A stretch of 64,000 nucleotides of DNA from Simplicispira psychrophila DSM 11588. Lineage in GTDB: Bacteria; Pseudomonadota; Gammaproteobacteria; Burkholderiales; Burkholderiaceae_C. The first letter of the stretch is position 1. The number at the start of each line of letters is the position of its first letter. The translations under genes and the position numbers were made by a program. Of this stretch, positions 4,053 to 63,075 are shown in pieces. The notes beneath the pieces were generated by a model. The model had not been told where the DNA came from. It did no database searches and saw nothing but the letters and a program-made list of their open reading frames with translations. Where the stretch lies: assembly GCF_000688255.1 (NCBI RefSeq), contig NZ_JHYS01000004.1:62001-126000 (forward strand), in the 5' to 3' direction.

Positions 4053-4069
4053 AATAAAGTCTGTTCAAA

Positions 4070-4125
4070 CTATTATTTTGAGAGCTTTAAGCGCTTGTTG
4101 CATAAGCGTTTGAAGCACTTTTGAC
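4070..4125 (+). repeat. Dispersed intergenic repeat, copy 1
   Basis: This copy has the order of blocks shared by the window's dispersed repeat: a TATT..TTTTGA run, an AGCTTTAAGCGCTT block, the spacer TGTTGCAT, AAGCGTTTGAAGC, and a final TTTTGAC. It fills the gap between the permease and globin genes and runs almost into the globin start codon, so it may form part of the 5' leader of that mRNA. Confidence 0.7.
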
Positions 4126-4126
4126 C

Positions 4127-4570
4127 ATGAATTGCCCGATCAAACACAACGTACCGCCGGTAGCCCCGGCCGCCACCACTGCCGCGGCCCAAGACAGCGC
4201 CTTTGCCCTGATCGGCGGTGAGCCGGCCTTGCAGGCGCTGGTGGCGCGCTTTTATGACCTGATGGAGCTGGAGTCGCGCTACACCGAACTGCGCGCCAGC
4301 CACGGCAACACGCTAGACGACGCGCGCCAAAATTTGTTCTGGTTTTTGTGCGGCTGGATGGGCGGTCCCGACTACTACCAGGAGCGCTTTGGCCACCCGC
4401 GCCTGCGCGGTCGCCATTTGCCGTTTTCCATCGGCATCCGGGAGCGCGACCAGTGGGTGGCCTGCATGGATCAGGCGATGCTCGAGACCCACGTGCCCGA
4501 GCCACTGCGCACGCGTCTGTCGGAAAGCTTCATGACCACCGCCGACTTCATGCGCAACCGCAATAACTGA
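4127..4570 (+). CDS. Group II truncated haemoglobin
   Basis: This is a small cytoplasmic haem protein of the 2-over-2 globin fold, involved in oxygen or nitric oxide chemistry in many bacteria. The 147-residue product shows the family signature: ALIGGEPALQALVARFYDLM in helices A-B, FLCGWMGGP with the conserved Trp, then HPRLRGRHLPFSIG. The last His of that block is the expected proximal haem ligand. I start it at ATG 4127; an in-frame TTG lies two codons earlier. The N-terminal 25 residues before the globin core look disordered. It is the last gene on this strand before a convergent regulator gene. Confidence 0.9.
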   Translation: MNCPIKHNVPPVAPAATTAAAQDSAFALIGGEPALQALVARFYDLMELESRYTELRASHGNTLDDARQNLFWFLCGWMGGPDYYQERFGHPRLRGRHLPFSIGIRERDQWVACMDQAMLETHVPEPLRTRLSESFMTTADFMRNRNN

Positions 4571-7664: not shown

Positions 7665-7894
7665 CTGGGCCCCACCCCGGCTGAGCAAACGCAAGATCCA
7701 CAAACATGCGATGGGGGCGCCAATTTCTGGAGTGAATTCAGTGGACAGCGTGTTGGTCACGGTGCCAGAACGGCGACCGCGGCGGTGATGGGCAAGTGCC
7801 ATGGGAGAGACTCCTGTCGTTGCAATGCCGCCATGGTGCGCTCAGGGTGCGACAGCCGGTGTCGCTGGCAGCGAGGCCTAATAATATTTATTAA

Positions 7895-7950
7895 TGCTAT
7901 TAAAAACAGAGCTATAAGCGCATGTATATATTGCGTTTAAGGCCTGAAAG
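7895..7950 (+). repeat. Dispersed intergenic repeat, copy 3
   Basis: Blocks GCTATTAAAAACAGAGCTATAAGCGC, then a TTGCGTTTAAGGCC half, match the window's repeat. It lies in the 357-bp divergent gap 7665-8021 between the AAA ATPase and lemA. That gap must also carry promoters for both transcription units. I see no other gene in it. Confidence 0.65.
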
Positions 7951-8021
7951 GCTCTTAACAGAGACCTGTTTGCCGGCCTTTCCCCTAAGATACGCAGCCA
8001 TCACACCAAAGGAAACACGAC

Positions 8022-11628: not shown

Positions 11629-11961
11629 ATGCCGGCCCCTGTATCAAAAAACCTGGAAAACGCACTACAGCCACAAGAGGTGCTGCCGCTCAGCAACGCC
11701 GAATTGGTGCAGCTGCAGATTCGCGTGATCGCCCTGGAAAATCTGGTGGTAGCCCTGCTGGCCAATGCACCGGAGCGGCAACTGGAGCTGGTACGCGACA
11801 TTGCAGCATCGATTTTTCCGCGGCCTGGCGTCGAGCACCGATTGACAGCCCAGGCTGCCGCTCAGATGGAGCACCTGGCACAGCGGTCACGGCGTTTGCA
11901 AGGCTGTCTGGCGCCGTCTCCAGACAAGGTGTCCGAGGATGATTTGCATCAAAATCAATAG
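11629..11961 (+). CDS. Hypothetical helical protein (110 aa)
   Basis: No family is recognised. The product is predominantly helical, with a heptad-like stretch SNAELVQLQIRVIALENLVVALLANAPERQLELVRDIA at about residues 22-60 that could form a coiled coil, then a polar tail. The ATG at 11629 fits the start of the conserved-looking part; upstream codons have unlike composition. It is transcribed divergently from the sdh cluster, with 152 bp between the starts of this gene and the small sdh leader ORF, so a shared regulatory region lies at 11477-11628. Confidence 0.6.
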   Translation: MPAPVSKNLENALQPQEVLPLSNAELVQLQIRVIALENLVVALLANAPERQLELVRDIAASIFPRPGVEHRLTAQAAAQMEHLAQRSRRLQGCLAPSPDKVSEDDLHQNQ

Positions 11962-12002
11962 CTTAAAGCGCTTGATGGGCGAGTCCTACAGGCTGATTTG
12001 AC
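11947..12002 (+). repeat. Dispersed intergenic repeat, copy 4
   Basis: It shows CAAAATCAATAGCTTAAAGC, then GCTTGATGG, and ends ACAGGCTGATTTGAC. It begins within the last codons of the hypothetical gene and fills the convergent gap before the Smr gene. Confidence 0.65.
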
Positions 12003-12010
12003 TGCTGCCA

Positions 12011-12937
12011 TCAATAGCGACCTTGCGCCATCGGCTGCAACAGCACCAGCAAAGCGCCCGCGCCGCCGTCCATTGGGCGCGCTTGGACAAAGGCCAGTAC
12101 CTCGTTTTTTTGTACCAGCCAGCGTTGCACCCGGCCTTTGAGCACCGGCGCCTTGCCAGGCGATCCCAGTCCCTTGCCATGCACCACACGCACGCAGCGT
12201 ACGCCGAGTTTGTTGGCTTGGCGGATGAACTGGCCCAGTGCCTCGCGCGCTTCATCGACGCGCAGGCCGTGCAGGTCGAGCTGGCGCTGGATGCTCCAGT
12301 GCCCGGCGCGCAGGCGGTGGGTGATCTCCGCGCCGATGCCCGGTCGGCGAAAACTCAGCTGGTCGTCGGTGTCGAGCAGGGTGCTGACATCAAAGTCGTC
12401 GCTGATGGATTCGCGTAGCACCCGTTCTTCGTCTAACCAGTGTTGCACCGGCAGTGGCAGCGTCCGTTCGGGTGCCGTGTCGATCAGATTGCGGCTGCGC
12501 AGCGGTGTGATGGCGCCGATGCTGCGGGTGAACAATTGCCGTTCAGCCTGTAGCCGTGCAGCGGCTTCGCGCTGCGCTTTGGCTTGTGCGTCGGCGCGTT
12601 CCTGTTCTTCGCGCAAGCGCTGCGCCACGCCGGCCAGATCTTGCAAATCGTGCACGCGCAGGCTGATACGGCGCGGTGCGGCGGCGCTGCGCCGGGGTTT
12701 GGCTGGGGTGGGGGGGAGGCTGGGTGCGACGGTGCGCGGCCCCAGGGTGCGGCGTGCTTGTTGGGCGGCGTAGCGTGCGGTGGCGACTGCGCGTCGCAGC
12801 GTTCGGGGCGTCTCAGCGGCGGCAGGGAACGGTTGCGAGGCATTGGCGTCAGGCGCTGCGGCGCTGGCGCTGGCGCGCAGCAGCGCCGTGGCCAGTGCGC
12901 CTGACAGGGCGGCGGGCAGTTGTGGCGGCGGCATCAC
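12011..12937 (-). CDS. Smr-domain protein with an extended N-terminus (308 aa)
   Basis: Smr domains (MutS2 C-terminus type) are DNA or RNA nicking or binding modules. The domain is C-terminal: [17 protein letters not shown] at about residue 217, then [28 protein letters not shown], with the LDLHG and HGKG motifs intact. A charged helix at about 95-135 ([30 protein letters not shown]) precedes it. The first 90 residues are Ala/Pro/Arg-rich and look disordered, and they are unlike the usual Smr proteins of about 200-230 aa. The ATG at 12937 overlaps the radC stop by four bases, supporting this start. A function in DNA repair or ribosome rescue is inferred only. Confidence 0.85.
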
Positions 12938-14133: not shown

Positions 14134-15125
14134 AGCACCCGCAAGAAGTTTTGTTGGCCGCACCACGCGGTTTTTGCGCCGGCGTTGATCGGGCGATCGA
14201 GATTGTCGAGCGCGCGCTGGAAAAATTTGGCGCCCCGATCTACGTGCGCCACGAAATCGTCCACAACACCTATGTGGTCAACGACCTGAAGGCCAAGGGC
14301 GCGATTTTTATCGAAGAACTCAGCGACGTGCCGCCCGGCGCTACCTTGGTGTTCAGCGCCCACGGCGTCAGCAAAGCGGTGCAACTGGAGGCCCAGGCGC
14401 GCGGTTTTAGCATCTTTGATGCCACCTGCCCGCTGGTCACCAAGGTGCATGTCGAAGTCGCCAAGTTGGCCCAAGAGGGTTACGAATTCATCATGATCGG
14501 CCACAAGGGCCACCCGGAAGTCGAAGGCACCATGGGCCAGCTGGACCACGGTATTCACTTGGTGGAAGACGTGGCCGGCGTGGCGTTGGTCAAGCCGCTG
14601 CAGACCGAGCGGCTGGCGGTGGTCACGCAAACTACGCTCAGCGTGGACGATGCCGCCGAGATCATGGCGGCCGTGCGCGCGCGCTTTCCGAGCGTGCGCG
14701 AGCCCAAACAGCAAGACATTTGTTACGCCACGCAAAACCGCCAAGATGCCGTCAAGCTGATGAGCCCGCAGGTCGATTTGGTCGTCGTCGTCGGCAGCCC
14801 CACCAGCTCCAACAGCAACCGCCTGCGCGAGTTGGCGGACAAGCTGGGCACCACTGCCTACATGGTCGATAGCGCCGATGAACTGCGCCCTGAGTGGTTT
14901 ACCGGTATCGCCCGCGTCGGCCTGACGGCGGGCGCCTCCGCCCCAGAAATCTTGGTGCGCCAAGTGATTGAGCGCATCAAGGCGCTGGGCGCGGTGTCGG
15001 TGCGCACTATGGACGGCATCGAAGAAACCATCAAGTTTCCGCTGCCCAAGGGACTCAAGATCGATGCTGCCACCGGCCTGGAGCTGTCGCAGCGCAGCCC
15101 AGAGACCGGCAGCGCAAGCCACTAA
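14130..15125 (+). CDS. ispH: 4-hydroxy-3-methylbut-2-enyl diphosphate reductase
   Basis: IspH is the last enzyme of the methylerythritol phosphate pathway, a [4Fe-4S] protein that makes IPP and DMAPP. The conserved Cys residues lie in [13 protein letters not shown] (about residue 17), [11 protein letters not shown] (about 101) and the later [10 protein letters not shown] region (about 199). The catalytic histidines (RHEIVHN, SAHGVS, GHKGHPE) and the TSSNSNRL substrate loop are all present. The GTG start at 14130 overlaps the fkpB stop. The length of 331 aa is slightly longer than E. coli IspH owing to the C-terminal tail. Confidence 0.96.
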
Positions 15126-15126
15126 A

Positions 15127-15184
15127 CGCTATTTTTACAATAGCTGGTAGCGCTTGCTGCATAAGGGCTAGAGGCTATTTGACC
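15127..15184 (+). repeat. Dispersed intergenic repeat, copy 5
   Basis: This is one of the clearest copies. Blocks are CGCTATTTTTACAATAGCTG, GTAGCGCTTGCTGCATAAGG, and GCTAGAGGCTATTTGACC. It fills the gap between ispH and the convergent CBS-domain gene and covers that gene's stop codon. Confidence 0.75.
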
Positions 15185-15915
15185 TCAAATCGTGGCGCAT
15201 TTCTGCGCCGCTCGGCGTAGCCTACAACCGGCCGACCGCCGCTCCAAATGTCCAGCGGCGGGTCGGCGGCCACGGCCTGCAAGATGTCGTTGCGCGAGAT
15301 AAAGCCCGACAGCGCGCCAAACTCGTCCGTCACCGGCAGGCCCGGCAAGTCGGCATCCAGCAGCACCCGTGCCACGCGGCGCAACTCGGTGTCCGCAGAC
15401 ACGGTCGGCACGGGGCTGACCATCACTTCAGACACGGGGCGTCCGGCCAGTTCGATCGCTGCCTGCACTGCGCCGGGTTCGGGCAGCAAATCCAGTGGCG
15501 CCATGTCGGCGCGCAGCAGCATTCCCACCACCAAGCCCATCGCGTTGACCACCGGCGCCTGCGCAACGTGGTACTGCGCCAGCGTGTGCCATGCGTCGTT
15601 GACGCGCACCTCGGGCGGCACGGTCAGCACGCCGGTACTCATCACATCGCGCACGCGGGTCAGTTTCTGGCGCTCTTGCGGCCCTTGCGCGGTTTGAACG
15701 TAGGCCGAGACGGCGTCTTGTACGCGCGGACTGATCGGCTCGGGGGGGCGGTTGGCTGGCGGCAGCTGCACCTGCACCGGTTCGTCCTGCGGCGAACCCA
15801 CGCTGCGCGTGTGCAGCGCCTGGGTGCGCGCCACCCGACGCACCGGTGCCACTTGCATCAGGGCGTCAGGGCCGCCGCGAAACATCTGCCCCGAGGGGCC
15901 AAAAACAAAAAACAT
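15175..15915 (-). CDS. Tandem CBS-domain protein (246 aa)
   Basis: CBS pairs bind adenosyl ligands and regulate partner proteins. The two CBS motifs cover about residues 90-220: VRDVMSTGVLTVPPEVRVNDAWHTLAQYHVAQAPVVNAMG, then VSEVMVSPVPTVSADTELRRVARVLLDADLPGLPVTDEFGALSGFISRNDIL. The N-terminal 80 residues are Pro/Arg-rich and carry no other domain I can see, and there is no membrane helix. It is a monocistronic gene convergent with ispH. The partner is unknown. Confidence 0.85.
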   Translation of the reverse strand: MFFVFGPSGQMFRGGPDALMQVAPVRRVARTQALHTRSVGSPQDEPVQVQLPPANRPPEPISPRVQDAVSAYVQTAQGPQERQKLTRVRDVMSTGVLTVPPEVRVNDAWHTLAQYHVAQAPVVNAMGLVVGMLLRADMAPLDLLPEPGAVQAAIELAGRPVSEVMVSPVPTVSADTELRRVARVLLDADLPGLPVTDEFGALSGFISRNDILQAVAADPPLDIWSGGRPVVGYAERRRNAPRFEVK

Positions 15916-26284: not shown

Positions 26285-26323
26285 GGTGCGTCTCCGGTAA
26301 AGCGGCGCAGAAAACCAAAGATC

Positions 26324-26380
26324 ATAGCCAAAAGTGCCTCCAGCCCTTGCTGAGTAAGCGCGATAAGCTATGATTTTTGA
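26324..26380 (-). repeat. Dispersed intergenic repeat, copy 7 (reverse)
   Basis: Read on the minus strand it gives TCAAAAATCATAGCTTATCG, CGCTTACTCAGCAAGGGCTG and GAGGCACTTTTGGCTATG, the same block order as the plus-strand copies. It lies upstream of the leader of the second BMP gene. Confidence 0.7.
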
Positions 26381-26393
26381 TTTTTATACGCCG

Positions 26394-31360: not shown

Positions 31361-31470
31361 TCTGGCTTGTGGGGCGCTGCAGGTAAGCTGGCGCCCCGGT
31401 GCACAGGGGCTGTCCGGCCCTGCGGCGCTTTGTTGACAACCGGCGTCGGCAGAAAGACCTCATTTTTAAA

Positions 31471-31523
31471 GCAAAATACGGCTCTAACGCTTGGTGGTCA
31501 AGCGCTGATAGCTATCAAAACAG
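31471..31523 (-). repeat. Dispersed intergenic repeat, copy 8 (reverse)
   Basis: On the minus strand it reads TTTTGATAGCTATCAGCGCT, TGACCACCAAGCGTTAGAGC, then CGTATTTTGC. It is a well-preserved copy in the 184-bp gap between bkdB and dcd; its right end lies 22 bp before the dcd start. Confidence 0.75.
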
Positions 31524-31544
31524 TAGTTTGGGCGAGGAATCAAG

Positions 31545-34475: not shown

Positions 34476-34504
34476 GCGGCGGTTGCAGGGCTTATTTTTA
34501 AGGA

Positions 34505-34556
34505 AAACAACCCTGCAGCCTTGATCTGATAAGCGCTTTCAGCTATCAAAATAAAA
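34505..34556 (-). repeat. Dispersed intergenic repeat, copy 9 (reverse)
   Basis: On the minus strand it reads TTATTTTGATAGCTGAAAGC, GCTTATCAGATCAAGGCTGC, AGGGTTGTTTTCC. It is a well-preserved copy in the 182-bp gap between the peptidase gene and rhlE, about 100 bp upstream of rhlE. Confidence 0.75.
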
Positions 34557-34657
34557 GTAATTCAGCCAGCGCCCACGACGCTGGCAAGGCGCACTGCGCC
34601 GCCTTTCGTGTCAAGTTACACGCAAGTTTCGACGCAGGTGCGACAATAGCGGGCTAA

Positions 34658-36205
34658 ATGACAAGTTCTTTTTCCAATTTATCGCTGGCCGAGCCGCTGG
34701 CACGCGCCGTAGCCGAAATGGGCTACGAGTCCATGACCCCCATCCAAGAGCAGGCCATTCCGGTGGTGCTGACGGGCCAAGACGTGATGGGCGCTGCCCA
34801 GACCGGCACCGGCAAGACGGCGGCATTTTCACTGCCACTGCTGCAGCGCCTGCTCAAGCACGAAAGCAGCTCTACTTCACCCGCGCGTCACCCGGTGCGC
34901 GCCTTGGTGCTCCTGCCCACGCGTGAGTTGGCTGACCAAGTGGCGCAGCAGATTGCGCTGTACGCCAAATACACCAAATTGCGCAGCACGGTGGTGTTTG
35001 GCGGCATCGACATGAAGCCCCAAACCATCGAGCTGAAAAAAGGCGTTGAGGTGCTGGTGGCGACGCCGGGACGTCTGCTGGACCACATCGAGGCCAAAAA
35101 TGCGATCCTGAATCAGGTCGAATACGTGGTGCTCGACGAGGCCGACCGGATGCTGGACATCGGCTTTTTGCCCGACCTGCAGCGCATCCTGTCGTACCTG
35201 CCCAAGCAGCGCACCACACTGCTGTTCAGCGCCACCTTCTCGCCTGAGATCAAGCGCCTGGCCGGCAGTTACCTGCAAAATCCGGTCACCATCGAAGTGG
35301 CCCGGCCGAACGAAACTGCTTCCACTGTGGAGCAGCGCTTCTACAGCGCCGGCGACGACGACAAGCGTCGCGCTATCCACCAGGTGCTGAAAACGCGCGG
35401 CATCAAACAAGCGTTTATTTTTGTTAACAGTAAGCTCGGTTGCGGCCGCTTGGCGCGCAGTCTGGAGCGCGAAGGCCTGAAAACCACTGCGTTGCACGGC
35501 GACAAGAGCCAGGACGAGCGCCTGAAAGCCTTGGAGTCCTTCAAGCAGGGTGAAGTCGATCTGCTGGTCTGCACCGACGTGGCCGCGCGCGGCCTGGACA
35601 TCAAGGATGTGCCAGCGGTGTTCAACTTCGACGTGCCGTTCAACGCCGAAGACTACGTGCACCGCATTGGCCGCACCGGCCGGGCGGGGGCTTCGGGCCT
35701 GGCAGTGACGCTGGTCTCTGGCAGCGATGCGCGTCTGGTGGCCGACATTGAAAAGCTTCTGAAGAAAAAGATTGACATCGAAGCGCTCGAATACGACGAC
35801 GAGCGCCCGCAAGGCCGTAGCCACGACAGCGCTCGTTCAGAGCGACCTGAGCGCACCGAGCGCCCGGAGCGTACCGAACGCTTTGAGCGCCCCCAGCGCC
35901 CGGAGCGCGCGCCCTATGCCGAGCGTGCTCCCCGTGTCTCGCGTGGAGGCTTCCGTCCAACACCCGTTTCACGCGATCCGTTTTTTGAGCGGCCCTACGA
36001 AGCACCCACCGCCGCCGCCGTTGCAGCCGACTGGGAGGCTGCGGCCCGCGCTCCGGCTGGGCGGGGCGGTGTCTCGCCCAACATCAAGCACAAGCGCAAG
36101 ACGGCCGCGCTGTTTCAGCCACCAGCACCTTTGCCAGCGGTGTCTGCCCCGGCAGTCGTATCGGCGCCCGAAGCGGAAGCCGAAGCATCTGCATCACAGG
36201 TCTAA
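34658..36205 (+). CDS. rhlE: DEAD-box RNA helicase, RhlE type
   Basis: This is an ATP-dependent RNA helicase for ribosome assembly and RNA turnover. The motifs in order are the Q motif (YESMTPIQEQAIP), Walker A AQTGTGKT, PTRELADQ, TPGRLLD, VLDEADRMLD, FSATF, and the C-terminal set ending HRIGRTGRAG at about residue 335. The tail from about 385 is a low-complexity run of E-R-P and E-R-T units (RPERTERPERTERFERPQRP) and then a basic and Ala/Pro-rich end, common in RhlE proteins for RNA binding. The length is 515 aa. A strong terminator follows at 36242. Confidence 0.94.
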   Translation: MTSSFSNLSLAEPLARAVAEMGYESMTPIQEQAIPVVLTGQDVMGAAQTGTGKTAAFSLPLLQRLLKHESSSTSPARHPVRALVLLPTRELADQVAQQIALYAKYTKLRSTVVFGGIDMKPQTIELKKGVEVLVATPGRLLDHIEAKNAILNQVEYVVLDEADRMLDIGFLPDLQRILSYLPKQRTTLLFSATFSPEIKRLAGSYLQNPVTIEVARPNETASTVEQRFYSAGDDDKRRAIHQVLKTRGIKQAFIFVNSKLGCGRLARSLEREGLKTTALHGDKSQDERLKALESFKQGEVDLLVCTDVAARGLDIKDVPAVFNFDVPFNAEDYVHRIGRTGRAGASGLAVTLVSGSDARLVADIEKLLKKKIDIEALEYDDERPQGRSHDSARSERPERTERPERTERFERPQRPERAPYAERAPRVSRGGFRPTPVSRDPFFERPYEAPTAAAVAADWEAAARAPAGRGGVSPNIKHKRKTAALFQPPAPLPAVSAPAVVSAPEAEAEASASQV

Positions 36206-36220
36206 ATTAAGGGTTAAATA

Positions 36221-36288
36221 GGCCTCAAAGCCTTGTTGGATATGCGGCTTAAGCTATTTAAAAAATAGCTTAAGCCGCATTTTTTTTG
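36221..36288 (+). terminator. Intrinsic terminator of rhlE formed within a copy of the dispersed repeat
   Basis: A near-perfect 18-bp inverted repeat (arms at 36242-36259 and 36263-36280) pairs ATGCGGCTTAAGCTATTT with its complement and is followed by eight T (36281-36288). The left arm together with upstream GGCCTCAAAGCCTTGTTGGA (36221-36240) is a reverse-oriented copy of the dispersed repeat, so the terminator seems to have grown from repeat sequence. Confidence 0.9.
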
Positions 36289-40119: not shown

Positions 40120-40557
40120 ATGGCGCTGCGGCCGAGCTGACAATAACCTGAAAGGCCTCGCCAAGCAGGGCCCGTGCCTTTTTCTTTTTGTCAGATACCA
40201 TAGTGTTTCAGTGGGTATTTCAGGGGGCTCCGACAAGTCATCGCAATAGATCGGCTGTGATTATCCAAAATACTACAGCCTTGCGTTTCTAGGTCGCCGC
40301 AATATGGCAGCTGTACGTGTTCTTGGCACACCCTGGCTGTTGTCGGGATAACGGGTGCTGTGGTGTTCTCTGGTGGGTCCAGTGGTGTTTTTTGTACTCA
40401 CTCGGGCAAGGCTTTCAAATAGGCTGCACTGCCGTGATTTTTGGGCTCAATAACTCTGCTGGGCTGCCATTGGGTATCTGGCAGTGTCCCTGTCCTCTGG
40501 CCTGCAGCGCGTCGGGTGCCAGAATGGTGCCCTTGTTTCCCCTCACAGGAGTCCGCC
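40120..40557 (+). other. Long intergenic region upstream of acnA
   Basis: About 440 bp without a gene I can support. The open frames on the plus strand here (40317-40721 and the upstream extension of acnA from 40441) have no domains and unusual Cys/Trp-rich composition. The region looks less G+C-rich than its flanks and probably holds the acnA promoter and leader. I see no riboswitch or repeat copy. Confidence 0.55.
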
Positions 40558-43497
40558 ATGGCCATGCTGTTATCCCCGCCCCTCCACCACGCCTTTGCGT
40601 CCACGCGCCAAAGTTTTACGACCGCGTCAGGGACGCAGGGCCAGTTTTATTCGTTGCCCGCGTTGGCCGAACAATTCCCGCAGGTGAAACGCTTGCCGGT
40701 ATCGATTCGCATCGTGCTTGAATCGGTATTGCGCAACTGCGATGGTCGCAAGGTAACCACCGATCATGTCGCGCAACTGGCCCAGTGGCAGCCCCAGGCC
40801 GAGCGCAAGGACGAAATCCCGTTTGTCGTGGCGCGCGTCGTATTGCAAGACTTCACCGGCGTGCCGTTGCTGGTGGATCTGGCGGCGATGCGCAGCACGG
40901 CGCTGCGACTAGGCCAGGATGCACAAAAAATCGAGCCCCTGGTGCCGGTGGATCTGGTAGTGGACCACTCGATCATGGTCGATTCCTACGGCCAGAAAAA
41001 CTCGCTTGACATCAACATGCAGCTTGAATTCCAGCGCAACCGTGAGCGCTACGAGTTCATGAAATGGGGCATGCAGGCGTTTGACACTTTTGGTGTGGTG
41101 CCGCCGGGTTTTGGCATCGTCCATCAGGTCAATTTGGAATATCTGGCGCGCGGTGTGCACCAAACTGCCGACGGCGTGTATTACCCCGACACCCTGGTCG
41201 GCACCGACAGCCACACCACCATGATCAACGGCATTGGCGTGGTCGGTTGGGGTGTGGGCGGTATCGAGGCTGAAGCCGCGATGCTGGGTCAGCCGGTGTA
41301 TTTGCTGACCCCCGATGTGGTCGGCGTCGAATTGAGCGGCCAGTTGCGCGAAGGTGTGACCGCTACCGACTTGGTGCTGACGGTGACCGAACTGCTGCGC
41401 CGGCACAAGGTGGTAGGCAAGTTTGTTGAGTTTTTTGGTGCCGGCACACGCACCCTGGCGCTGCCCGACCGTGCCACCATCGGCAACATGGCGCCCGAGT
41501 ACGGCGCCACCATGGGCTTCTTTCCGGTCGATGAAAAGACCATTGAATATTTCCGTGGCACTGGCCGCACCGAGGCCGAGATCGAGGCCTTCGAGGCCTA
41601 CTTCAAGGCGCAGGGCTTGTTTGGCGTGCCGCTGGCGGGCGACATCGACTACTCCCAGGTGATTGCGCTGAACCTGGATACGGTCACGGCCAGTCTGGCC
41701 GGCCCCAAGCGGCCGCAGGACCGCATTGAATTGGGCAAGGTGTGTGAACAGTTCTCCAGCCTGTTCAGCAAGCCCAATGCCGAAAACGGCTTCAACCAGC
41801 CGGCGCAACTGTTGCACACGCGCTACCCGTTCATCTGCCGCGATGAGACGGCGCTTCAGATGAACGTCACCACGCCGCCTAGCAAGCCCATGCCCGAGAA
41901 CGCGCCGCGTTTTCTGCAGGAGATGGAATCGAACAAGCCCGAGCCGGCCGTGGCCCATGGCGATATCGTGCTGGCTCCCCAGGTGCCGGGCGAGAAGGTC
42001 GATCCCACCGTGGGCAATGGCGATGTGCTGATTGCCGCCATCACCAGTTGCACCAACACTTCCAACCCCAGCGTACTGCTGGCCGCCGGGCTGCTGGCGA
42101 AAAAAGCCGTGCTGGCCGGCCTGTGCGTGGCGCCGCACATCAAGACCTCGCTGGCGCCGGGCTCGCGCATTGTCACCGAGTACCTGACTGAGACCGGCCT
42201 GATGCCGTACCTAGAAAAGCTCGGTTTTGCGCTGGCCGGCTACGGCTGCACCACCTGCATCGGCAATGCCGGCGACCTGACTGCGGAACTCAATCAGGCG
42301 ATCAGCAGCAACGATCTGGTCTGCGCGGCGGTGCTCTCGGGCAACCGCAATTTTGAGGCGCGCATCCACCCCAACATCAAGGCCAATTTCCTCGCCAGTC
42401 CGCCGCTGGTGGTGGCCTACGCCCTTGCCGGCACGGTGCTGAAAGACCTGACCAGCCAGCCGCTGGGGCAGGGCAGTGACGGCAAGGAGGTGTTTCTGGC
42501 CGATATCTGGCCGAGCAGCGAGGAAATCCACGCGCTGATGCACTTTGCCATGAACGGCAAAGCGTTCCGCGAGAACTACGCCAAGGTCAAGACCGAGCCC
42601 GGCGAGCGCTGGGCCCGCATCCGGGGGGTCGAGGGCGACACCTACACCTGGCCGACCAGCACCTACATTGCCGAGCCGCCGTATTTCGATCATTTTGCTA
42701 TGGATGCAGGAGCTGAAAGCGCTGGTGCAGCGGGCGCTACAGGCCAAAATGGTGCATTTTCTGTGCCGGGCGCGCGCATCATGGCACTGTTTGGCGACTC
42801 CATCACCACCGACCATATCTCGCCCGCAGGGGCTATCAAGGAGAGTTCGCCCGCCGGCCAGTGGCTGCTGCAGCATGGCATCCACAAGGCCGACTTCAAC
42901 AGCTACGGCGCGCGCCGCGGGCACCACGAGGTGATGATGCGCGGCACCTTTGCCAACGTGCGCATCAAGAATTTGATGCTGCCGCCGCTGGACAGCGGTT
43001 CGCGCGAAGAGGGGGGCGTGACGCTGTTCCAGAACCCTGGGCCGCTGCAGGGCGAGAAGCTCTATATCTTTGACGCTGCCATGCATTACCTGGAGCAGGG
43101 CACGCCGACGGTGGTGTTTGCCGGCGAGGAATACGGCACCGGGTCGAGTCGCGACTGGGCCGCCAAGGGCACGCAGCTGCTGGGCATCAAGGCGGTGATT
43201 GCGCGCAGTTTTGAGCGCATCCACCGTTCTAATTTGGTCGGCATGGGCGTGTTGCCGCTGCAGTTCCAGGGCCAGGATTCGTGGGAATCGCTCAGCTTGA
43301 CGGGCGAAGAAACCATTGACGTGCTGCCCGATGCCGCGCTGACGCCGCAGAGCGATGCCACGTTGGTTATTCGCCGCACCGATGGCACGCAGCGCCAGGT
43401 GACGGTGACCTTGCGCATTGACACGCCGATTGAGGTGGACTACTACCGCGCCGGCGGCATCCTGCCGTACGTACTGCGCCAGTTGCTGGCGGCATAA
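40558..43497 (+). CDS. acnA: Aconitate hydratase A
   Basis: This TCA-cycle [4Fe-4S] enzyme interconverts citrate and isocitrate. The cluster cysteines lie in [12 protein letters not shown] (about residue 500) and [12 protein letters not shown] (about 562-565). Catalytic-region motifs [24 protein letters not shown] and [15 protein letters not shown] are intact. I start at ATG 40558 after CACAGGAGTCC. The length of 979 aa exceeds the roughly 890 of E. coli AcnA. Part of the excess (about residues 712-735, just before [20 protein letters not shown]) is encoded by what looks like a copy of the dispersed intergenic repeat read in frame. It lies in the linker before the mobile domain 4, so activity is probably kept. 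Confidence 0.94.
42693..42752 (+). repeat. Dispersed repeat inside the acnA coding sequence
   Basis: The bases TTTTGCTATGGATGCAGGAG, CTGAAAGCGCTGGTGCAGCG and GGCGCTACAGGCCAAAATGG follow the same block order and spacing as intergenic copies, for example 44790 (GCTATTTAAAATGGAGCTAT) and 62871 (AGCTGTAAGCGCTTGTATAG, then AAGCGCTCAAGGCC). It is in frame and encodes an Ala/Gly-rich segment absent from the usual aconitase pattern. Confidence 0.6.
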
Positions 43498-43580
43498 ACC
43501 CGCAGGCGCAGGCTAGTGCACAGGCAACGCAGGCGGTTGCGTTGCCTTTTTTTACGTGATCGCAGGCACAATTCGTGCCT

Positions 43581-44777
43581 ATGAAAAAGCAGGTATTGAT
43601 CGCCGGTGGCGGCATTGGTGGGTTGGCGGCGGCGCTGGGCGCAGCGCGCGCCGGGTGCGATGTGCGCTTGTATGAGCGTGCCGACATCTTCAGCGAAGTC
43701 GGCGCGGGCGTGCAACTGAGTCCTAACGTGGTGCGCTGCCTGCAGGCTTGGGGCTTGCAAAAGCCGCTGCAGGCGGTGGCGGCGTTTCCCGAGCGGCTGC
43801 AGGTGCGCTGTGCCACGTCTGGCCAGGTGTTGGCCACACTGCCGCTGGGCACGGACATGGTGCAGCGTTACGGCGCCGTTTATGCCTGCGTGCACCGCGC
43901 TGACCTGCATACCCTGCTGCTGGCAGCGGTGCTGCAGGAGGACGGGGTGCAGCTCAATCGCGGCCAAACCATCAGTGGCTACACCGAGGCCGCAGACGCC
44001 GTGCTGGTGCACACCGGCCAGGGCAAGGAGGTGGAGGGCGATGCACTGATCGGTGCTGACGGCCTGCGCAGCTACACGCGGGCGCAATTGCTCGGCGACG
44101 GGCCACCGCGCACCAGTGGCCACCTAGCCTATCGCGCGTTGGTACCACAAGGCGCCTTGCCCGCCGGCCTGCGCACCACCCAGGTCACCGCTTGGCTGGG
44201 GTCGCACCTGCACGCGGTGCAATACCCGGTGCGCGGGGGCGAAATGCAAAATCTGGTGGTCATCATCGAAGGCCCGCCGCCGGACGACCTGGACAACTGG
44301 GACCATGCCGCCAACGCCGCTGATCTGGAACGTGCACTGGCGGGCGCCTGCAGCCGCTTGCAAGACATCGTGCGCAGCGTGCCCACCTCCGGTAGCGGCT
44401 GGCGCCTGTGGCCGTTGTCGGATCGTCCGCCGGTGAGTAGTGCCGCGCAGATGGCACGCGGTCTGGTGGCGCTGCTGGGCGACGCGGCCCACCCGATGCG
44501 TCCCTATTTGGCACAGGGCGCCGGCATGGCGATCGAAGACGCGGCGCAACTGCAGCGCGCGTTGTCGATGCACGACCTGGATGTGGCGCTGCGTCTGCGC
44601 CGCTATGCCCTCAACCGCTGGGAGCGCAACGCGCGCGTGCAGGCGCGCTCGCAGCGCAACGGGCGCATCTTCCACGCCACCGGCCCGCTGCGCTGGGGGC
44701 GCGATGCTTCGCTGCGTCTCTTGGGTGCGCGCGTGTTGGATATTCCGTGGCTGTACCAGGGGGACGGATCGGTGTGA
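43581..44777 (+). CDS. FAD-dependent aromatic-ring monooxygenase family protein
   Basis: This is a flavoprotein hydroxylase of the salicylate/6-hydroxynicotinate monooxygenase class. It has the N-terminal dinucleotide fold VLIAGGGIGGLAAALGAARAGCDVRLYERA, the central GADGLRSYTR (DG motif) at about residue 155, and LVALLGDAAHPMRPYLAQGAGMAIEDA (GD motif) at about 295. The length is 398 aa. I start at ATG 43581 rather than the GTG two codons earlier. The substrate is unknown; no ring-cleavage genes adjoin it. A convergent MFS transporter gene follows. Confidence 0.9.
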   Translation: MKKQVLIAGGGIGGLAAALGAARAGCDVRLYERADIFSEVGAGVQLSPNVVRCLQAWGLQKPLQAVAAFPERLQVRCATSGQVLATLPLGTDMVQRYGAVYACVHRADLHTLLLAAVLQEDGVQLNRGQTISGYTEAADAVLVHTGQGKEVEGDALIGADGLRSYTRAQLLGDGPPRTSGHLAYRALVPQGALPAGLRTTQVTAWLGSHLHAVQYPVRGGEMQNLVVIIEGPPPDDLDNWDHAANAADLERALAGACSRLQDIVRSVPTSGSGWRLWPLSDRPPVSSAAQMARGLVALLGDAAHPMRPYLAQGAGMAIEDAAQLQRALSMHDLDVALRLRRYALNRWERNARVQARSQRNGRIFHATGPLRWGRDASLRLLGARVLDIPWLYQGDGSV

Positions 44778-44789
44778 AGGTGGGGCGCT

Positions 44790-57585: not shown

Positions 57586-57939
57586 ACAGCGGCGACAGGT
57601 GCAGCCAAAAGGTTGTCATTGGATTTTTTTGCCTAATGGCCGCACTGCGCCAGCCACCACTGCTTTGCCCTCTGAGTTCCCACACATGACTGGACACACC
57701 TTTGTCCGCAACAAAGGCGTTTTGTCAAGGAGCTTGCCGCACAGCGTACGCCGGCCGGGCGGCACTCCATTTCTTATTTGATAGCTGTCAGCGCAGACTG
57801 CATAAGCGCTAGAGGAATTTTTGACTACATAGCGCCTAACCGCGCCTCGCAGACGTCGCCACAATGCATAGGACATCGCCCAAGGCGCAAAGCGCGCGCC
57901 CCGCCTTGCGCTGTAATCCACCCCGCAGGAGACCACCCC
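57586..57939 (+). other. Right edge of the accessory segment and leader of the ABC exporter
   Basis: No complete gene. The left part may hold frameshifted remains of the coupled ORF. A 7-bp hairpin (CCTTTGT/ACAAAGG, 57699-57717) followed by CGTTTTGT is a weak terminator candidate. A 60-codon open frame (57599-57781) has no domain. The dispersed repeat at 57774-57826 follows, then about 110 bp of high-G+C leader up to the exporter ATG. Confidence 0.5.
57774..57826 (+). repeat. Dispersed intergenic repeat, copy 11
   Basis: Blocks are TTATTTGATAGCTGTCAGCG, CAGACTGCATAAGCGCTAGA and GGAATTTTTGAC. It is a well-preserved copy that marks the return to typical chromosomal sequence after the accessory segment. 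Confidence 0.75.
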
Positions 57940-62359: not shown

Positions 62360-62860
62360 ATGGACGCACCGAAGACACTGCTGATCGTCTATCACTCGTT
62401 GACTGGCGGTACGCGGCAGATGGCCGAGGCGGCGCGTGCTGGTGCGGCCACTGAAGACGGCGTAGCAGTGCGCCTGCTGCACGCCTTTGCTGCCGGGCCG
62501 CAGGACGTGCTGGCCGCCGATGGCTATCTGTTTGCCACGCCTGAAAATCTGGCGGCGATCAGCGGGCCGTTGAAAGATTTTTTTGATCGCACCTATTACG
62601 CTGCGCTCGACCAGCTCAATGGCCGGCCCTACGCCAGCCTGATTTGCGCCGGCAGCGACGGCAGCAATGCCGCGCGGCAGATCGCGCGCATTGCCACCGG
62701 CTGGCGGCTGAAAGCTGTGGCCGAGCCGCTCATCGTCTGCACCCACGCGCAAACGCCCGAGGCCATCCTGGCAGCCAAACAGATCAGCGCAGAAGCGCTG
62801 GAGCGCTGCCGCACGGTGGGCGAAGCCTTGGCGGCGGGGCTGGCACTGGGCGTGTTCTGA
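62360..62860 (+). CDS. Flavodoxin-like/NAD(P)H-dependent oxidoreductase family protein (166 aa)
   Basis: The N-terminus LLIVYHSLTGGTRQMAEAARAGA is a flavodoxin phosphate-binding loop (hSxTGxT pattern). DGYLFATPENLAAISGPLKDFFDRTYY follows, with the second FMN-contact loop of NADPH-dependent FMN reductases. I start at ATG 62360, 13 bp after the transferase stop. It probably binds FMN and reduces a small molecule or quinone; the partner is not evident. Confidence 0.82.
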   Translation: MDAPKTLLIVYHSLTGGTRQMAEAARAGAATEDGVAVRLLHAFAAGPQDVLAADGYLFATPENLAAISGPLKDFFDRTYYAALDQLNGRPYASLICAGSDGSNAARQIARIATGWRLKAVAEPLIVCTHAQTPEAILAAKQISAEALERCRTVGEALAAGLALGVF

Positions 62861-62863
62861 TCC

Positions 62864-62916
62864 TTTTTTTATAGCTGTAAGCGCTTGTATAGAAAGCGCT
62901 CAAGGCCGATTTGACT
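62864..62916 (+). repeat. Dispersed intergenic repeat, copy 12
   Basis: Blocks are TTTTTTTATAGCTGTAAGCG, CTTGTATAGAAAGCGCTCAA and GGCCGATTTGACTGG. It is a well-preserved copy directly after the flavodoxin-like gene. Its two AGCGCT arms could form a hairpin. Confidence 0.75.
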
Positions 62917-63075
62917 GGTGTTTTCGTCCTGTGCGCTGTGGTTGCTGTCAACGCCAGCCGGCTCGTCCCAGGGCGCATGGGCAGGGCCGAGCCGGTGCCC
63001 AGCGCGAATGTGCGCCAGCCCCTAGACTTGGGCGTCCATTTTCAGCGCCCACGCGCCACTTCAGGAGAAATCACC

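Follow-up and report, generated by a model that had tools for sequence, protein, structure and literature searches.

The analysed window, a 64 kb stretch of the Simplicispira psychrophila DSM 11588 genome, contains acnA and twelve matches (E<0.01) to R1, a covariance model of a dispersed palindromic repeat; the tenth of these lies in frame within acnA, in the linker preceding the last domain of the encoded aconitase. The features are:

40558..43497, plus strand: acnA, the host gene, an open reading frame for a 979 aa aconitate hydratase A (NCBIfam PRK12881, 1380 bits)
42691..42763, plus strand: in-frame palindromic repeat copy within acnA, about residues 712-735 (712-732 as counted in the 979 aa protein from the ATG at 40558), with a net gain of about 13 aa
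44788..44860, plus strand: intergenic copy (27.8 bits) about 10 bp past the stop of the ORF at 43575-44777 and ahead of an opposite-strand ORF; named in the original prediction
62853..62925, plus strand: copy (58.4 bits) that starts over the TGA at 62858-62860, by eye the stop of the preceding gene; also named in the original prediction
4063..4135, plus strand: repeat copy, an R1 match that folds well (z -3.0)
31461..31533, minus strand: repeat copy (57.5 bits)
15122..15193, plus strand: repeat copy (55.3 bits)
34492..34564, minus strand: repeat copy (42.5 bits)
57763..57835, plus strand: repeat copy (41.4 bits)
26317..26389, minus strand: repeat copy (39.5 bits)
11940..12012, plus strand: repeat copy (35.2 bits)
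36203..36275, minus strand: weak repeat copy (29.7 bits) overlapping a terminator-like hairpin at 36242-36280
7890..7962, plus strand: weak repeat copy (28.0 bits)

The ATG at 40558 was picked by eye as the acnA start; the mechanical open reading frame begins at 40441. The nearest AcnA among the 80 best named records is that of Giesbergeria (85%). An AlphaFold model of the protein was poor (mean pLDDT 52.3, pTM 0.47) and no conclusion was drawn from it.

Across the 3.6 Mb genome we gathered 183 distinct copies of the repeat, which is about 65 bp long, has a consensus of about TTTTACTATTAAAATAATAGCTATTAGCGCTTACTGCATAAGCGCTAGAGGCCGATTTGACTTAAAAT, and is organized around a near-perfect palindromic core, AGCT-N3-AGCGCTT-N6-AAGCGCT. 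The exact pattern AGCT-N{2,5}-AGCGCT-N{3,14}-AGCGCT occurs 35 times, always over 28 bp (two of the matches are one palindrome counted on both strands), and 0 times in a backwards control. In a sample of 200 genomes of the order, two of the five family members included, this genome and G192, stand out with 35 matches each; the rest have 0-3, against 0-7 per strand in the backwards control. Of 30 exact-core loci, one close to a contig end and one that is the same palindrome on the opposite strand were removed, leaving 28 intergenic copies for the alignment (A1) and for R1, from which the acnA copy was absent. R1 returns at least 150 matches in the genome with E up to 0.03. A second model, built from 32 acnA linkers of other genomes, places the S. 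psychrophila acnA site first (67.2 bits), as expected given that those linkers are orthologues, followed by other in-gene copies of the same genome. At gathering threshold, Rfam detected one tRNA in the whole window and no repeat family match.

The sequence blocks at 42693-42752 that first drew attention to acnA are present as described and share the register of the intergenic copies, and R1 matches acnA 42691-42763 with 29.2 bits (E=0.003), by itself a modest value. The decisive control compares each linker, scored with a weight matrix built from those 28 intergenic copies, with 200 synonymous-codon shuffles. The S. psychrophila linker scores 31.9 while its shuffles average -30.1 +/- 10.1, and none of the 200 reaches the native value, so the shuffled control named in the original prediction falls well short of the real sequence. 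Among close orthologues, 63 of 71 linkers of at least 40 aa are matched by at most 1/200 shuffles (the other 8 by more), compared with a single linker that is repeat-like beyond synonymous expectation among the 33 of 35 aa or less; three linkers of 38 aa fall in neither class. These shuffles place the likeness in the DNA, beyond that of an Ala/Gly-rich peptide. In the 61 orthologues whose long linkers both beat their shuffles and score above -25, third-position G+C is 35% within the element, against 86% elsewhere in the gene.

AcnA orthologues came from the best 30 of 100 family genomes searched (own genome included) and the best 80 named records; they were chosen by likeness to the S. psychrophila AcnA and are therefore close ones. 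A usable frame was found in 107 of the 110 loci (L125, L126 and L151 were left out), representing 101 different proteins. The linker is at least 40 aa long in 71 of the 107. A search of 60 genomes of the same order gave 28 loci outside the family, with a linker motif readable in 25; every one of these linkers measures 25-31 aa, and none scores above -25. The commonest long linker (41 aa) exceeds the commonest outgroup linker (28 aa) by 13 residues, and alignment to IRP1 (2b3x) and cytosolic aconitase (3sn2) leaves a 13-residue gap at the element. Shuffles, alignment and outgroup linkers thus all bear out the proposal of a repeat-derived, in-frame segment in the linker ahead of the last domain, longer than in repeat-free orthologues. 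The net gain of 39 bp is smaller than the roughly 60-70 bp match, so part of the former linker must have been replaced or trimmed away; no clean empty site was found among the orthologue linkers compared.

The insertion is not specific to the lineage, as had been considered at the outset, because the same site is filled in records from Acidovorax, Giesbergeria, Ottowia, Comamonas, Curvibacter, Rhodoferax and Polaromonas. The suggestion that the element moved into acnA is consequently not supported in the sense of a recent or lineage-only entry, and movement itself was not seen. By sequence comparison, the acnA segment is instead an old repeat-derived in-frame insertion common to many genera. 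Its distribution within the family is scattered: on a FastTree tree of AcnA minus the linker (61 rows with the element, 33 without, 13 unlabelled) it requires 16 changes, of which at least 12 are forced by well-supported branches. By eye, some short linkers resemble deletions of a former insert, so presence and absence do not form a simple record of insertion. Element distance climbs with gene distance to a plateau near 0.4 (Mantel r 0.37, 0/2000), a relation that fits inheritance within genera. Three acnA linkers (L117, L111, L112) have a different first insert half (FIAKNGANKS), as if shifted by small indels, and a repeat-like second half.

The original prediction had expected these residues to accompany the repeat, and for the most part they do: of the 30 genomes that yielded an AcnA locus and in which copies were counted, 7 of the 9 with at least 4 strict copies have the element, as do 3 of the 21 below that number (Fisher p=0.002). 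The element is thus retained in a few genomes where strict copies are nearly absent (G027, G042, G047). The many-copy exceptions are G003, which has a short linker, and G015, whose 40 aa linker beats its shuffles but falls under the cut of -25. Over the same 30 genomes, linker score tracks genomic copy number (Spearman 0.51, p=0.004).

The parallel that had been drawn with the palindromic elements of Rickettsia extends beyond acnA to nine further named genes. Eight of them (NCBIfam names cysN, pbpC, rpoN, ygiQ, leuS, comEC, mnmE, glmU) carry in-frame copies read in the same frame, that of cysN close to the protein N-terminus; pbpC is a fragment slightly below the NCBIfam curated cut-off. The ninth, murG, carries its copy in another frame (C1:117213-117276, minus strand; L191), and the gene terminates with it, 16 residues separating match and stop. 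Counting the S. psychrophila genome, the repeat is found beyond synonymous expectation at the same leuS site in 8 of 21 genomes and the same rpoN site in 10 of 21, while other orthologues of these two genes have G+C-rich or shorter versions (by eye). Segment-free orthologues exist for acnA, leuS and rpoN, and many in-gene copies are decayed.

Of 166 copies scoring at least 30 in the fetched loci of this genome, 35 fall in predicted genes, a proportion biased by how the sample was drawn (10/93 for loci found with the intergenic model, 25/73 for those found with the acnA model); gene prediction was by a simple codon-score method with eight training genes, which missed cysN and placed mnmE below its score cut. 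The 35 in-gene copies use frames (+,0) 16, (-,2) 10, (+,2) 6, (-,0) 2 and (-,1) 1 times, and the 131 non-genic copies are open in these frames at 44%, 29%, 7%, 39% and 4%, respectively. The commonest in-gene frame is thus the one most often open outside genes, an agreement to be read with the fact that part of the sample was led by a model built from (+,0) copies; by contrast, (-,0), open in 39% of the non-genic set, accounts for only 2 of the 35 in-gene copies. An AAAA run occurs in 13/35 genic and 26/131 other copies, again in a sample led partly by the in-gene model; we regard replacement of the T-run by an A-run, as a loss of termination in genic copies, as a tendency only and make no claim of it.

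A rival reading makes the repeat a DNA site with a function of its own, either as a protein-binding site or as a self-recognition tag in DNA uptake, that selection keeps wherever it stands, genes included, at positions that are old and immobile. In its favour, the core is the same across genera, genic and intergenic positions are shared, A+T-rich codons persist over genus-level divergence, and linker score correlates with copy number. The codons themselves speak against it: identical codons make up 0.69 of the element where 0.64 would be expected, a small excess that other windows of acnA surpass; constraint at the DNA level, sought through codon identity, gave no clear excess. The 183 copies in 3.6 Mb are also a low density for an uptake word, the element is longer than known words of that kind, and many in-gene copies are decayed. 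We consider such a site improbable.

Outside genes, copies prefer gene 3' ends. Where both neighbours were called (n=121; ten further non-genic copies lie at stretch edges), intergenic copies separate 82 co-oriented, 29 convergent and 10 divergent gene pairs, whereas 50 copy-free gaps comprise 30, 6 and 14, respectively (convergent versus divergent, Fisher p=0.002), and copies lie a median of 12 bp from a gene 3' end and 63.5 bp from a 5' end. For the copy at 44788, two Giesbergeria loci (L076, L077) and Acidovorax L079 carry a counterpart in the same position, as judged from the alignment, that of L079 having a different and still matched palindrome; at least some intergenic copies are therefore old. 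Two other Acidovorax loci (L105 near 2303, L047 near 1293) have copies upstream of acnA whose palindromes depart from the consensus with both arms matched.

This preference for gene ends is what would be seen if the intergenic copies were simply bidirectional terminators with a common consensus, those inside genes being left over from former gene ends or from fusions, and the palindromes that, by eye, differ yet stay matched at some shared intergenic places agree with a role of that sort. Those places are an exception: covariation is slight across 158 copies and single-copy folds are mixed (n=5; z -3.2, -3.0, -1.9, -0.2, and +0.6 for the acnA copy), so RNA structure conserved by compensatory change is unsupported as a general rule. 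Termination does not need a shared 65 bp consensus, just one of the nine non-genic copies within the two scanned stretches (35.5 of the 64 kb) overlaps a terminator-like site, and the genic copies lie within single conserved genes, for which reasons we give this explanation little credence. The terminator-like site at 36242-36280 is strong, with an 18-pair hairpin and a T-run, and overlaps a weak repeat copy.

Another rival, of the REP/RAYT type, has the repeat mobilized by a Y1 transposase whose gene is present in most of these genomes:

L396 oriented 1754-2491: Y1-transposase gene (PF01797), with the domain at C1:184849-185175 in the S. psychrophila genome

Matches to this Y1_Tnp domain, which we take to be of the RAYT type, occur in 14 of 15 genomes. 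In S. psychrophila, repeat copies lie close to the Y1 gene on both sides; a copy above 10 bits is near the gene in 4 of the 10 copy-bearing genomes read, and in G000, G004 and G015 a copy sits between the Y1 gene stop and a conserved 3' motif. In the other 6 of the 10, no copy above 10 bits is near the gene, and four genomes with 0 strict copies possess it as well. Moreover, the gene has conserved ends of another kind, ATRTGTCCC downstream in 12/14 and a GGGGTCAGA-like sequence upstream in about 10/14 (by eye). That this transposase mobilizes the repeat is accordingly quite doubtful. Truncated Y1-transposase matches at contig ends of the S. psychrophila genome (C5:1-186, C16:2-181, C22:37263-37424) may reflect a multi-copy IS at which the assembly is interrupted. 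Finally, a chance likeness of an Ala/Gly-rich linker, for which one might cite the weak stand-alone score of acnA with the intergenic model (E=0.003 in 64 kb), is virtually inconceivable given 0/200 synonymous shuffles and the same outcome in 62 other long orthologue linkers.

The reading we prefer, and believe to be probably correct, is that the acnA stretch represents a copy, in frame, of a palindromic repeat that occurs across many Comamonadaceae genera. The repeat would be small and non-autonomous, tolerated directly past stop codons and landing in genes now and then. Since it is open in some frames, a copy inside a gene can be translated, and would be read as a stretch rich in Ala, Ser, Gly, Asn and Gln; copies would survive where the protein accepts an extra loop, which in acnA would be the linker ahead of the last domain. 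There, an ancestral insertion within the family was presumably followed by inheritance, composition change or partial deletion, and the resulting loop may be translated and neutral. Spread as small non-autonomous elements is how we suppose the copies arose, but because genic and intergenic copies are common to several genera, present mobility is doubtful. Neither terminal inverted repeats nor target duplications were seen in the copy alignment. A more far-reaching version is that core proteins of this whole free-living family (aconitase, sigma-54, leucyl-tRNA synthetase, MnmE, GlmU, MurG and others) gained repeat-fed loops, in-gene copies staying close to the genomic consensus while the repeat family lives on in that genome, through recurrent insertion or conversion at identical sites; we consider this unlikely on balance, if conceivable.

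Judged on sequence features, the repeat has the traits of RPE-like coding repeats, as a multi-copy palindrome that lies in frame in several unrelated conserved genes with segment-free orthologues. Like RPE of Rickettsia and the coding palindromes of Wolbachia, it is small, occurs both between genes and in frame within conserved ones, and can be read as peptide. It is set apart from them by size, host, in-gene share and placement: RPE are given as 105-146 bp (PMC2229807) against about 65 bp here, nearly half of RPE are said to lie in genes (PMC10969869) against 10/93 for our intergenic-model loci, and the present host is betaproteobacterial, with copies mostly at gene 3' ends. What is new, then, is the element and its host group, the kind (protein-coding palindromic repeats) being already known from Rickettsia RPE. 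Short dispersed palindromes such as REP/RAYT, ERIC and Correia/NEMIS, some of them described with open frames fused to genes (PMC2229807), differ, as far as descriptions can be compared, in that no terminal inverted repeats or target duplications were seen here.

Parts of the repeat have very likely been reported before. Table 7 of a 2017 study (PMC5217627) includes GCTTAT(N)5AAGCG in Acidovorax ebreus (114 copies, of which 44 are convergent and 4 divergent, with 5 in genes) and ATAGCT(N)22CAAAAG in Polaromonas naphthalenivorans (125 copies, 18 in genes), each presented as a potential novel motif. The A. ebreus motif resembles our repeat in its gene-orientation bias, and both have some copies in genes. 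The former motif is present in 42 of our 183 copies; the latter is in none of them and in one copy of a Polaromonas-clade record (L140). The two motifs are very likely the same repeat as ours, and the section of that study devoted to them is without the full element, an in-frame or protein analysis, or a family-wide distribution. Among the matches listed in our literature search, in-gene copies of the repeat were not described, the nearest being this motif table. A MITE in Polaromonas sp. JS666, cited in PMC10969869, is likewise a small repeat of the same bacterial family and may or may not be the same one.

The best-known cases of palindromic repeats inserted in frame come from the reduced genomes of Rickettsia and Wolbachia. 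The present case concerns core genes of a betaproteobacterial family that has cultured members, and in its sequenced relatives the site is found complete, decayed or missing. These states open to test the neutrality of repeat-derived peptides, their course of change over time, and whether intergenic repeats may act as a source of new protein loops.
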